A stretch of 64,000 nt of DNA from Pleomorphomonas diazotrophica (GTDB lineage: Bacteria > Pseudomonadota > Alphaproteobacteria > Rhizobiales > Pleomorphomonadaceae): NCBI RefSeq assembly GCF_002844595.1, contig NZ_PJNW01000001.1, positions 62,001 through 126,000 on the forward strand. The letters are read 5' to 3'. The notes under the pieces were generated by a model. It had not been told where the DNA came from. It did not search any database and saw only the letters and a list, made by a program, of their open reading frames with translations. Positions 27,721 to 32,095 of the stretch are shown one piece after another. The translations under genes were made by a program, and so were the position numbers. The stretch's first letter is position 1, and each line of letters starts with the position of its first letter.

Positions 27721-28755
27721 ATGTTCCAACAGTCCGTCGAAACGTCGAAATCGGTTCTCAACTTCAACTCGCATGACGCCATCGCCCGCGCGCTGCCGGG
27801 CGTCGGTGCCTGTGTCGCTATCGCGGGTGTCGCCTATGGATTGAGGATGCTGCCGGGCGTCCACGACTTCAGTCCGATGATCATTGCCATCGCCTTGGGC
27901 ATCCTGATCCGCAACACGATCGGTACGCATGCCGCGCTCACCGTCGGCATCGGCTTCTCGATGCGCCGACTGCTGCGCCTCGCCATCATCTTGCTCGGCG
28001 TGCAACTGACCTTCGGACAGGTTGCCGAGACGGGCGTGCGAGGCGTTGCCATCATCCTTGCCGCCGTCGGCACGACTTTTCTGTTCACCTTGGCCGTTGG
28101 CAGGCTCATCGGGGCCGACCCGCGTCTCACCCGCCTGATCGCCGCGGGAACGTCGATCTGCGGCGCTTCGGCGGTGGCCGCGGCCAACTCGGTGGTCGAC
28201 GCCCACGATGAAGACGTCGCCTACGCGGTCGCCTGCGTCACCGTATTCGGCTCCATCGCCATGTTCGCCTATCCGCTGCTGCAGGGCGCTCTCGACCTGG
28301 CGCCGCGCGATTATGGCCTCTGGGCCGGTGCCTCGATCCATGAGATCGCTCAGGTGGTGGCAGCAACCTTTGCAGTGGGGCGCGAGGCGGGCGACTTCGG
28401 CACCGTCGCCAAGCTGACGCGCGTCATGACCTTGGCGCCGATGGTGTTCGCCATGGCCGCTTTCCTGCCGTCGCTGGGAGACGCAACTTCGGAGCGGGCA
28501 AAGGTGCCGCTGCCGTGGTTCGCGCTCGGCTTCATCGCGCTCGTTGCCGTCAACAGCGTCGTCGCCATACCGCCGGCCATCAAGGCGGATACCAGCGTGG
28601 TCAGCACCTTCCTGCTGACCATGGCGCTCGCCGCCATGGGGCTCGAGACAAGCATTGCCAAACTCAAGGCAAAAGGCATGAAGCCGGCGCTGACCGGGGC
28701 ATTGGCCAGCCTTTTCATTGCCAGTCTGAGCCTGATCTTGGTAAGGCTGACCTGA
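27721..28755 (+). CDS. yeiH: YeiH-family putative sulfate exporter
   Basis: 344 residues and about ten hydrophobic segments. Diagnostic stretches of the UPF0324/YeiH family are FSPMIIAIALGILIRNTIG, LRLAIILLGVQLTFGQV, GTSICGASAVAAANSVV and GASIHEIAQVVAA. Members are inner-membrane proteins proposed to export sulfate or sulfite and in some bacteria to release taurine-derived sulfur; biochemical proof is sparse. The adjacent co-oriented LysR-type gene repeats the yeiH-yeiE arrangement of enterobacteria. Confidence 0.92.
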   Translation: MFQQSVETSKSVLNFNSHDAIARALPGVGACVAIAGVAYGLRMLPGVHDFSPMIIAIALGILIRNTIGTHAALTVGIGFSMRRLLRLAIILLGVQLTFGQVAETGVRGVAIILAAVGTTFLFTLAVGRLIGADPRLTRLIAAGTSICGASAVAAANSVVDAHDEDVAYAVACVTVFGSIAMFAYPLLQGALDLAPRDYGLWAGASIHEIAQVVAATFAVGREAGDFGTVAKLTRVMTLAPMVFAMAAFLPSLGDATSERAKVPLPWFALGFIALVAVNSVVAIPPAIKADTSVVSTFLLTMALAAMGLETSIAKLKAKGMKPALTGALASLFIASLSLILVRLT

Positions 28756-28776
28756 CCTCTTGAGCTTCAGCTTGCC

Positions 28777-29691
28777 ATGACACTCGAACAGCTCCGCATC
28801 TTCGTTGCCGTCGCCGAGCGTGAGCACGTGACCCAGGCGGCGCACGATCTGCATCTGACGCAGTCGGCCGTCAGTGCCGCAATCACGGCGCTTGAAGGCC
28901 GCTATGCCATCAAGCTATTCGACCGCATCGGCCGCCGCATCGCATTGACCGACGCCGGCCGCACCTTTCTGGAGGAGGCGAGGGCGATTCTCATGCGCGC
29001 CGCCGACGGCGAAGCGGTGCTGTCCGATCTGGCCGGCTTTCGTCGCGGCGAACTGGCGATCGCCGCCAGCCAGACCATCGGCACCTATTGGATCCCGCGC
29101 GTCATCCAGGCATTCGCCACCACTCATCCCGGCATTCGCGTCACGCTTGAACTCGGCAACACGGAGTTCGTCGCCAGCCGCCTGCGTGACGGTGCCGCGC
29201 TCATCGGCTTTGTCGAGGGGCCGGTCGACGAGCCGAACCTTGCCGTCGATCGCCTGTTCGACGACGAGCTCATGCTGGTCACCGCTCCCTCCGACCCATG
29301 GCTCGCCACGGACGGCAGTATGGTAGAGCGGCTCAGGGCGGCTCGTTGGGTTCTGCGTGAGAAAGGATCGGGCACGCGCGTCGCGCTCGAGCAGGTGCTC
29401 GCGCATTACGACCTGTTGCCGGAAGATGTGGACCTGGCGCTCGAACTGCCGTCGAACGAGGCCATACGCACCGCCGTCGAGGCCGGCGCCGGGATTACCG
29501 TGCTGTCGCGCATGGCGGCGGGTGCGGCGCTTGCCGCCGGCACGCTGGTTCAGGTGGAAACGCCACTGCCAGGTCGCGCTTTCCATGCTCTCCGCCATCG
29601 CGAGCGCTATTTCGGCCGAGCCGCCACCGCCTTTGTCGATCTCGTCCGACCGGGACCTTTCGGCGTGACCTCGGCAGACGTCCAAGATTGA
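28777..29691 (+). CDS. LysR-family regulator, probably of the YeiH transporter
   Basis: 304 residues: N-terminal winged HTH (MTLEQLRIFVAVAEREHVTQAA, LTQSAVSAAITALE) and a C-terminal substrate-binding domain (GELAIAASQTIGTYWIP, LREKGSGTRVALEQVL). The effector domain resembles the YeiE/CysB-like group that responds to sulfite or sulfur signals. It starts 21 bases after the transporter gene, so the two are probably co-transcribed. Regulation of yeiH is inferred from position. Confidence 0.92.
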   Translation: MTLEQLRIFVAVAEREHVTQAAHDLHLTQSAVSAAITALEGRYAIKLFDRIGRRIALTDAGRTFLEEARAILMRAADGEAVLSDLAGFRRGELAIAASQTIGTYWIPRVIQAFATTHPGIRVTLELGNTEFVASRLRDGAALIGFVEGPVDEPNLAVDRLFDDELMLVTAPSDPWLATDGSMVERLRAARWVLREKGSGTRVALEQVLAHYDLLPEDVDLALELPSNEAIRTAVEAGAGITVLSRMAAGAALAAGTLVQVETPLPGRAFHALRHRERYFGRAATAFVDLVRPGPFGVTSADVQD

Positions 29692-29786
29692 CGCTGGAAG
29701 GCCACCGGTTCGCCCTCGATGACTTGTATCGCCTGCGATGGCGCACCATGATAGGCGGAACGGATCCCCGCCTTTGGAAATCAGGA

Positions 29787-30221
29787 ATGCCGCTTCACAT
29801 CATCAAGCTTTGCGTCGGCGTCGAGACGGTCGAGGAACTCGACCAGTGGTATCGCGAGGAAGTGCTGATCCATGCCGCCCGCGGCGAAAGCTATGAGCGC
29901 ATCCACGTCACCCGCATGTTTCCGAAACGCGTCGAAGAGGTTCTCGATGGCGGGTCGCTCTACTGGGTGATCAAGGGCATCGTGCAGGTGCGCCAGCGCA
30001 TTCTGGATCTCAGGCCGATGCGAGGCGGCGACGGCATCGACCGCTGCGGCATCGTGCTCGATCCCGAGCTGCACCGCACCGAGTACAAGCCCTGCCGCGC
30101 CTTTCAGGGCTGGCGGTATCTGCCCGACAAGGAGGCCCCGGCCGATATCCGCCAGTCCGAGATCCTTGGCGATATTCCCGAGGGCATGCGGCGGGCCTTG
30201 AGGGAACTGGCTTTGATTTGA
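29787..30221 (+). CDS. DUF1489 family protein
   Basis: 144 residues, the normal size for DUF1489. MPLHIIKLCVGVETVEEL, THVTRMFPKR-like RIHVTRMFPKRVEEVL, GSLYWVIKGIVQVRQ, YKPCRAFQGWRYL are characteristic. The family is conserved among Alphaproteobacteria; function unknown. The ATG at 29787 matches the conserved N-terminus; a TTG-initiated extension overlapping the LysR stop is unlikely. Confidence 0.9.
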   Translation: MPLHIIKLCVGVETVEELDQWYREEVLIHAARGESYERIHVTRMFPKRVEEVLDGGSLYWVIKGIVQVRQRILDLRPMRGGDGIDRCGIVLDPELHRTEYKPCRAFQGWRYLPDKEAPADIRQSEILGDIPEGMRRALRELALI

Positions 30222-30336
30222 CGCTCCCTTGGTAGAGCTCCGCGTGATTTTACTTGACGTAATCGGCGGGCGATGTTTCTTGTCCGCCAACCTTGCTTCG
30301 GCAGTTTCTGCGGAAGCGCTCCGTCGGACGATATCC

Positions 30337-30474
30337 ATGTTGCGCGCTCAGCACATTCGGACATCCTTGATCGCCCCGCTTTCGCGGGCCGCGGTTCCGG
30401 CTTTCTACGGCTTTATGGGCTTTTATGCGTGGCGTGCCGCTTCGGCGAGGCCGGTTCCGCAGCTGTCTGACTGA
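30337..30474 (+). CDS. Candidate attenuator leader peptide rich in Phe, Tyr and Trp
   Basis: The frame ending at TGA 30472-30474 reads ...VPAFYGFMGFYAWRAASARPVPQLSD. Six of ten consecutive codons (30403-30432) are aromatic: TTC TAC GGC TTT ATG GGC TTT TAT GCG TGG. Possible starts are ATG 30337 (45 residues) or ATG 30415 (19 residues, keeping Phe-Tyr-Ala-Trp). Neither has a strong ribosome site, so the true start is open. The stop lies 21 bases before the terminator stem. Its job would be to stall ribosomes when charged tRNA for any aromatic amino acid is short. Confidence 0.6.
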   Translation: MLRAQHIRTSLIAPLSRAAVPAFYGFMGFYAWRAASARPVPQLSD

Positions 30475-30518
30475 CAGGCCCAACGCGAGAACGAGCCCCG
30501 CCGAAAGGCGGGGTTTTT
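30441..30518 (+). promoter_or_regulatory. Putative ribosome-dependent transcription attenuator of aroG
   Basis: Three mutually exclusive segments are visible. TTCGGCGAGGC (30441-30451) can pair with GCCCCGCCGAA (30495-30505) in 10 of 11 positions; this is the antiterminator. The second segment also forms the left arm of the U-run terminator at 30496-30518. A ribosome stalled at the Phe/Tyr/Trp codons (last Trp 30430-30432) would leave 30441-30451 free, favouring read-through. One reaching the stop at 30472 would cover it, favouring termination. Confidence 0.65.
30496..30518 (+). terminator. Intrinsic terminator (attenuator) in the aroG leader
   Basis: CCCCGCC (30496-30502) pairs perfectly with GGCGGGG (30507-30513) around a GAAA loop, followed by five T. 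It is 275 bases past the DUF1489 stop and 195 bases before aroG, an odd place for an ordinary gene-end terminator and well placed for attenuation. Confidence 0.85.
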
Positions 30519-30712
30519 GTATTTGCGGCTCCGTCGCTGCCTGCCTCCGGCCTGGTGCCGGACGGGTGAAACGGAACCGCCGCCTTCCGCACCATCCCGT
30601 TGCGCGTCGCGCATTGGTGGTGGTGCCTCACCGGCGCCTCATGTAAAAGGTGCCAAATTCGGACTGCTCCGCGGTTTCCGCGGGGCGACGCATCGAGAAG
30701 AAGAGCCGCGTC

Positions 30713-32095
30713 ATGCCCACCACCTGGAAGCCCGACTCCTGGCGTGCCCTGCCCATCGAGCAGGTGCCCGACTATCCCGACATGGCGGCGCTCGCCGCCG
30801 TCGAGGCGCGTCTCGCAAGCTATCCGCCGCTGGTTTTTGCCGGCGAAGCCCGCAAGCTCAAGAAGTCCTTGGCCAAGGTGGCGGCCGGCGAAGCCTTCCT
30901 GTTGCAGGGTGGCGATTGCGCCGAGAGCTTCGCCGAGCATGGCGCCGACAATATCCGCGATTTCTTCCGCGTCTTCCTGCAGATGGCGGTGGTGCTGACC
31001 TATGGCGCCGCCCAGCCGGTGGTGAAGGTCGGCCGCATCGCCGGCCAGTTCGCCAAGCCGCGCTCCAAGCCGACCGAGACCATCGATGGCGTCGAGCTGC
31101 CGTCCTACCGGGGCGACATCATCAATGGCATGGACTTCACGCCGGAATCGCGCATTCCCGATCCGCAGCGCCAGGAGATGGCCTACCGCCAGTCGGCGGC
31201 GACGCTGAACCTCCTGCGCGCCTTCGCTCAGGGCGGCTACGCCAACCTCGACAACGTCCACAAGTGGACGCTCGGCTTCGTCAAAGGCACCCAGTCGTCG
31301 CGCTATCAGGAATATGCCGATCGCATCACCGAGAGCCTCGCCTTCATGCGGGCCTGCGGCATTCATCCCGAGACCGTCTCGGAGATGCGGACGACCGACT
31401 TCTACACCAGCCATGAGGCGCTGCTGCTTGGCTACGAGCAGGCGTTGACCCGCATCGATTCGACCACGGGCGACTGGTACGGCACGTCCGGCCACATGAT
31501 CTGGATCGGCGACCGCACCCGTCAGCCGGGTCATGCCCACATGGAGTACTGCCGCGGCATCAAGAACCCGATCGGCCTGAAGTGCGGCCCGTCGCTGGCG
31601 CCCGACGAGTTGATCCGCCTGATCGACACGCTCAACCCGGACAACGAGCCGGGGCGCCTGACGCTGATCACCCGCTATGGCGCCGACAAGGTGGGCGACT
31701 ACCTGCCGGGTCTCATCCGAGCGGTGCAGCGCGAAGGGCGGTCAGTGGTCTGGTCCTGCGACCCGATGCACGGCAACACCATCACGCTCAATTCCTACAA
31801 GACGCGGCCATTCGACCGCATCCTGAAGGAAGTCGGCGCCTTCTTCGACGTGCATGCCGCAGAGGGCACCCATCCCGGCGGCATCCACGTGGAAATGACC
31901 GGCCGCGACGTCACCGAATGCACCGGCGGCGCCGTCGCCATCTCCGGCGAGCAGCTGTCGGATCGCTACCATAGCCACTGCGACCCGCGCCTCAACGCCG
32001 ATCAGGCGCTGGAACTGGCCTTCCTGATCGCCGAGCGCATCAAGAAGACGCGCGAGGGCCGCGAGCCCATGGAATGGGCGATCGCCGGCGAGTGA
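30713..32095 (+). CDS. aroG: Class II 3-deoxy-7-phosphoheptulonate (DAHP) synthase
   Basis: 460 residues; condenses phosphoenolpyruvate with erythrose 4-phosphate, the first step of the shikimate pathway to Phe, Tyr and Trp. Class II (plant/AroA-II type) features: [27 protein letters not shown] (metal Cys), [43 protein letters not shown] (metal His), GGIHVEMTG. The ATG at 30713 has AGAAGAAGAG upstream and matches the family start. Expression is probably controlled by the upstream attenuator. Confidence 0.96.

Follow-up and report, generated by a model that had tools for sequence, protein, structure and literature searches.

The window, a stretch of 64,000 nucleotides of Pleomorphomonas diazotrophica DNA, carries on its forward strand aroG, which encodes a class II 3-deoxy-7-phosphoheptulonate (DAHP) synthase, downstream of a gene of unknown-function family DUF1489. 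The first-pass annotation of this DNA had named the enzyme class correctly, as the match to TIGR01358 confirms, and had placed in front of the gene an apparent attenuator sensing Phe, Tyr and Trp. A protein search gave one match in the genome, aroG itself, and the single PF00793 match is a KDO-8-phosphate synthase; these searches revealed no DAHP synthase other than aroG. Farther upstream, at 27721-29691, a YeiH-like exporter gene sits beside a YeiE-related LysR regulator gene, with matches below curated cut-offs. The features discussed below are the following.

29688-30221, forward strand: DUF1489 gene (PF07370), upstream neighbour
30254-30259, forward strand: TTGACG, putative -35-like hexamer conserved in the element-bearing clade, picked by eye
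30281-30330, forward strand: 5' hairpin domain P1 (UGUCCG ... GCUUC/GAAGC ... CGGACG), with one pair showing compensatory change
30336-30346, forward strand: 5' strand of helix P2, including the leader ATG, with its partner at 30426-30436
30337-30474, forward strand: putative leader frame, 45 codons plus stop
30371-30394, forward strand: internal hairpin, with one pair showing compensatory change
30403-30432, forward strand: aromatic codon run FYGFMGFYAW
30421-30426, forward strand: TTT TAT (Phe, Tyr), stall codons predicted by the folding model to permit the antiterminator
30443-30503, forward strand: antiterminator long hairpin, 23 pairs, with the stop codon in its apical loop
30493-30518, forward strand: intrinsic terminator with T run, excluding the long hairpin
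30525-30580, forward strand: structured spacer hairpin with compensatory changes, between the terminator and the aroG promoter element
30614-30625, forward strand: TTGGTGGTGGTG, putative conserved upstream side of the aroG promoter, picked by eye, with Trp codons by appearance only
30633-30654, forward strand: inverted repeat GGCGCCT-N8-AGGTGCC flanking the aroG -10 element
30642-30649, forward strand: TGTAAAAG, aroG -10 element in a degenerate form; relatives have TGTATAA
30713-32095, forward strand: aroG

The leader frame runs from an ATG at 30337-30339 to a TGA at 30472-30474 and would be translated as MLRAQHIRTSLIAPLSRAAVPAFYGFMGFYAWRAASARPVPQLSD. Six of the ten codons in its run are aromatic (TTC at 30403, TAC at 30406, TTT at 30412 and 30421, TAT at 30424 and TGG at 30430), a density with a single occurrence among the stop-bounded frames of both strands of the window and reached in 17 of 3000 sequences obtained from the 491-nt intergenic region by dinucleotide shuffling. 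Past the stop, CCCCGCC (30496-30502) and GGCGGGG (30507-30513) form a perfect 7-bp core around a GAAA loop, followed by TTTTT (30514-30518); this is the sole terminator-like site in 29700-31000, where shuffles average 1.2. The segment 30441-30451 (TTCGGCGAGGC) can pair in 10 of 11 positions with 30495-30505 (GCCCCGCCGAA), as read directly from the sequence. The annotation had reported frame, terminator and pairing 11-mer, and all of them stand. The gene downstream performs the first step in making the amino acids that such a leader would sense.

To follow the element in relatives, we used the 131-nt segment 30390-30520 as query (E ≤ 0.001). Copies were found in 12 of 14 genomes of the same genus and in none of six genomes from five other genera of the family. 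The lack of conservation in close relatives that the annotation had named as a refutation of its reading did not occur. Eleven of the 12 copies adjoin aroG, and the twelfth (G006) is cut by a contig end and preceded by DUF1489 sequence. Two copies are partial (G005 and G006); counts given below for the element's structure use the 10 complete copies, and those for the frame the 11 readable ones. By eye, DUF1489-like sequence replaces the 5' part of the element in G005 (L015/L106), on a draft contig, through either deletion or misassembly. A wider spread was sought with covariance model R1, which recovered the same 12 of the 20 family genomes and, under stricter filters, 6 of 297 genomes of the order, every one of them from the same genus. 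The exact 17-mer CTTTATGGGCTTTTATG occurs in seven of the 297 order genomes, six of the same genus and one other. Locus L108 (G297 C30), from a different family of the order, copies the 17-nt core exactly. In the two genus members devoid of the element, aroG is more divergent (87%, the others being at 95% or above) and the gap between DUF1489 and aroG is short. Aromatic leaders preceding aroG in other genera were also considered and rejected, the 80 named loci that we scanned (L065 and L089 with almost no upstream sequence) holding no copy of the run; in L085, a T-rich stretch has seven aromatic codons in ten and lacks a start codon.

Within the genus, the ATG, the peptide motif [YF]GFMGFYAW and the position of the stop codon in the apical loop of the long hairpin are kept in 11/11 readable copies, and 30409-30433 is invariant across the 11 genomes that hold this stretch whole. 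Three of the 11 copies carry a +1 insertion directly 3' of the TGG, and their stop still falls in the same apical loop, one of them ending with TAA instead of TGA. Across the aligned copies the frame has no codon-position bias (10/8/7 variable columns at the three positions, compared with 47/18/274 in aroG), which indicates that there is no peptide-level selection overall, and a conserved peptide was rejected on this ground. Such a pattern is expected of a leader peptide and equally of a non-coding RNA. The 25-nt core is unchanged even at synonymous sites, of which aroG conserves 79 out of 219 that are fourfold and 56 out of 140 that are twofold. No clear Shine-Dalgarno sequence was seen upstream of the leader ATG, which is paired inside helix P2. 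The evidence on translation is thus divided: the frame lacks codon-position bias and a clear Shine-Dalgarno sequence, yet the stop position is held despite a frameshift.

Two mutually exclusive folds, predicted to be an antiterminator and a terminator state, are kept in the 10 complete copies. In the antiterminator state 98.8% of cells are paired and in the terminator state 99.1%, against 34-52% in slid controls, nearly all substitutions lying outside pairs or preserving pairing. Only two pairs have changed on both sides, the same two in either state, located in the 5' and internal hairpins; this number is reached by 19 and 14 of 500 shuffles. Of the covarying stems that the annotation had proposed to look for, the switch helices provide none: no compensatory change occurs in the long hairpin or the terminator among the 10 copies, 18 of 23 and 8 of 10 of their pairs, respectively, being free of any variation, and covariation alone consequently does not prove the switch. 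Against column shuffles, z is -3.8 for the 5' hairpin, -3.7 for 30437-30516, -2.1 for 30437-30503 and no more than -1.4 for 30334-30440; the folding energy of the whole element copy in the window is unremarkable (z -1.3).

We modelled the equilibrium folding of the RNA left free 3' of the ribosome edge, for every edge from 30395 to 30461. The 10 modelled genomes amount to eight distinct sequences from 30432 onward, L005-L007 being identical. The antiterminator probability peaks when the first free base lies at 30432-30438, with a maximum of at least 0.7 in 9/10 genomes and values of at least 0.5 with the edge at 30434 or 30437 in 9/10; in L009 the maximum within this interval is just 0.38. Outside the interval the probability stays below 0.1 in seven genomes, and L003, L008 and L011 show 0.1-0.5, once 0.59, at upstream edges too. 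If 13 nt is taken as the distance from the ribosomal A site to the first free base, the peak is predicted to correspond to a ribosome halted at the Phe codon 30421 or the Tyr codon 30424. A ribosome halted at Trp 30430 would leave the RNA free from base 30443 on, and the antiterminator then stands at 0.00 in 10/10 genomes. With the ribosome at the stop codon, the terminator has a probability of 1.00 in all 10. In the equilibrium model, then, stalling yields the antiterminator for Phe/Tyr (9/10 genomes, against 0/10 for Trp) and reaching the stop yields the terminator; of the three amino acids that the annotation had proposed to be sensed, Phe and Tyr are retained and Trp is not. In the positive control, the genome's own trpE leader (MNGFVALNASWWWRFS), the antiterminator probability was 0.37-0.54 at 42-54 nt and close to zero at all other positions, a response that in the model fits stalls at its three TGG codons, at 30, 33 and 36.

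For the full RNA free of ribosomes, the terminator probability is 0.99 in the window copy and 0.20-0.95 elsewhere, falling below 0.5 in 3/10 genomes, and minimum-energy folds hold the long hairpin in 6/10, so that the untranslated RNA may adopt either state. This coexistence of both states in several genomes, together with their mutual exclusivity, would also suit a leader acting in cis independently of ribosomes, riboswitch-like or protein-binding, with a terminator/antiterminator output and the invariant core as recognition site; the core has unpaired stretches and lies inside a conserved helix closing 30336-30436, with the ATG paired. We consider such a leader improbable, given that frame and stop loop are retained in 11/11 readable copies and that Rfam leader and riboswitch families have no match at gathering score within the window. 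An aptamer limited to one genus would moreover be unusual.

How easily the switch could arise by chance was gauged in two ways. Shuffling the upstream sequence with the terminator held gave an antiterminator probability of at least 0.8 in 13 of 300 cases, and of 0.5 in 25 of 300. Among 59 terminators treated with one script (window plus 80 named loci), two reach 0.5, the aroG leader at 0.84 and another at 0.56, the latter at position 1952 of the reverse complement of L028. Taken alone, the switch is therefore no more than moderately unusual; the attenuator reading gains weight from the conservation of the switch and from its being in register with the aromatic codons. The same 13 shuffles, and the failure of a promoter scan to find a site, could be invoked for a rival account, namely that these are the terminator and 3' untranslated region of DUF1489, with no regulatory role for aroG and the remainder due to chance. 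Two exclusive structures conserved across 10 genomes, an element changing much more slowly than the spacer behind it, and a localized edge response all speak against this account, which we hold to be quite improbable.

The promoter scan upstream of the leader found no site, and the same scan also misses the aroG element. Promoters at the core or at TTGACG were rejected by eye and by the scan for want of a good -10 at the proper distance. Nearer to aroG, 44 of 78 named loci have an exact T[GT]TATAA no more than 250 nt from the match start (shuffles expect 0.98), 33 of the 44 at -50 to -75; two of the 80 loci were left out as having too little upstream sequence. By eye, TATAA stands directly before aroG in all eight element-free family genomes, six of other genera and two of the same genus. 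In the element-bearing clade the terminator precedes this aroG -10, which is degenerate in 9/11 genomes (TGTAAAA, TGTACAA, TGTATAG), TATAA being intact in L008 and L011. The ancestral -10 could bypass an attenuator. The sequence TGGTGGTGG at 30616-30624, examined as a second, Trp leader, was rejected by eye: because it varies in relatives, it was assigned to the aroG promoter element, as the upstream side of the latter.

Between terminator and promoter element, shuffling the alignment columns of the spacer (30519-30655) gives much poorer folding than the real order does (z -5.0, 10 genomes). Its hairpin has three pairs changed on both sides in 11 genomes, with a covariation score equalled in 0/500 shuffles and a pair number in 28/500; over the whole spacer and 5' region, 4 of 52 pairs changed on both sides. 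These compensated hairpins suggest that transcription runs through the spacer toward aroG, though DNA-level inverted repeats may be another source of the pairing. For a single leader-aroG transcript, the structured spacer thus speaks in favour, and the proximal promoter element and the lack of a clear upstream promoter against.

These data bear directly on the possibility that the element, lying between DUF1489 and aroG, is a small RNA gene in its own right with its own terminator. In that case aroG would be transcribed from the ancestral promoter, and the aromatic codons would be fortuitous, owed to an unpaired core that is AT-rich. The position of the ancestral -10 downstream of the terminator would agree with it, as would a frame without coding signature, a core invariant including its synonymous sites, a closed fold of several helices, and a spacer that diverges more (mean pairwise difference 0.229) than the element (0.035-0.123) or the promoter (0.125). 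A plain small RNA would nonetheless have no need of a conserved structure competing with its own terminator, and neither the trpL-like edge response at Phe/Tyr codons nor the compensated hairpins past the terminator would follow from it. On balance we regard a separate small RNA gene as unlikely.

We favour, with confidence a little better than even, a ribosome-dependent transcription attenuator on aroG that senses Phe and Tyr and is confined to part of one genus. The data show the sequence, its conservation, the exclusive folds and their behaviour in the equilibrium model; what we infer is a transcription start upstream of about 30281, translation of the 45-codon frame and a response to amino acid supply. 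With charged tRNA ample, the ribosome would reach the stop codon in the apical loop and break the long hairpin, and the terminator at 30493-30518 would form. With Phe or Tyr scarce, it would stall at 30421-30426; its leading edge would take away the strand competing for 30441-30451, the long hairpin would form, and RNA polymerase would pass the structured spacer into aroG. The proximal promoter probably retains basal, unattenuated expression. As to the attenuator-like leader proposed by the annotation, the conserved switch, the stop position, the codon run, the trpL-like folding and the structured spacer support it, and no convincing promoter was seen upstream of 30403. The annotation missed that an ancestral promoter element of aroG follows the terminator, and that the leader is restricted to one genus.

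A more far-reaching and rather doubtful scenario is that the genus acquired a complete attenuator, with promoter, frame, antiterminator, terminator and structured spacer, over an ancestral promoter of aroG, and that the -10 of the latter weakened afterwards, so that aroG would have two promoters, the distal transcript alone would sense Phe/Tyr, and the terminated RNA might act in trans like rnTrpL. If the attenuator reading is true, an RNA switch would tune the one DAHP synthase found here by Phe/Tyr translation, an alphaproteobacterial counterpart to the aroR leader of Corynebacterium glutamicum. Because two genus members and the six genomes of other genera in the family do not have the element, it would provide a usable case of an attenuator arising over an existing promoter.

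No earlier description of this aroG leader was found in the portions of the literature searched. The type of attenuator is already known, and the aroG case is best read as adding to a known kind. In Escherichia coli, expression of pheL-pheA and pheST tracks charged tRNA-Phe through a leader, according to PMC11802643; such sensing would be shared with the aroG leader, whereas gene, lineage and leader differ. According to PMC7298713, the rnTrpL RNA of Sinorhizobium meliloti starts at the trpL ATG, and trpL has several consecutive Trp codons. Like trpL/rnTrpL-peTrpL as described there, and like the trpE leader of its own genome, the aroG leader has a short control-codon frame and exclusive antiterminator and terminator, and it resembles the latter in its modelled edge response; compared with S. 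meliloti trpL, it is longer and structured, has mixed F/Y codons and gives no sign of a leaderless start. The trpE leader of the same genome is probably leaderless. At L127 (C40 of this genome), 5' of trpE, a -10-like TATGGG lies 6 nt before the ATG and a terminator is present. The closest parallel is aroR-aroF of C. glutamicum, in which, according to PMC4046766 and PMC11802643, a mixed aromatic leader peptide (Phe-Tyr-Phe) likewise precedes a DAHP synthase gene. The two belong to different phyla and have different leader sequences, the aroG leader being limited to one genus, associated with a class II enzyme and followed by a retained proximal promoter element. They also differ in what they would sense: aroR is reported to respond to Phe limitation and not to Tyr (PMC4046766; reviewed in PMC11802643, citing Neshat et al. 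2014), whereas stalls at both Phe and Tyr are predicted to be effective in the aroG leader.
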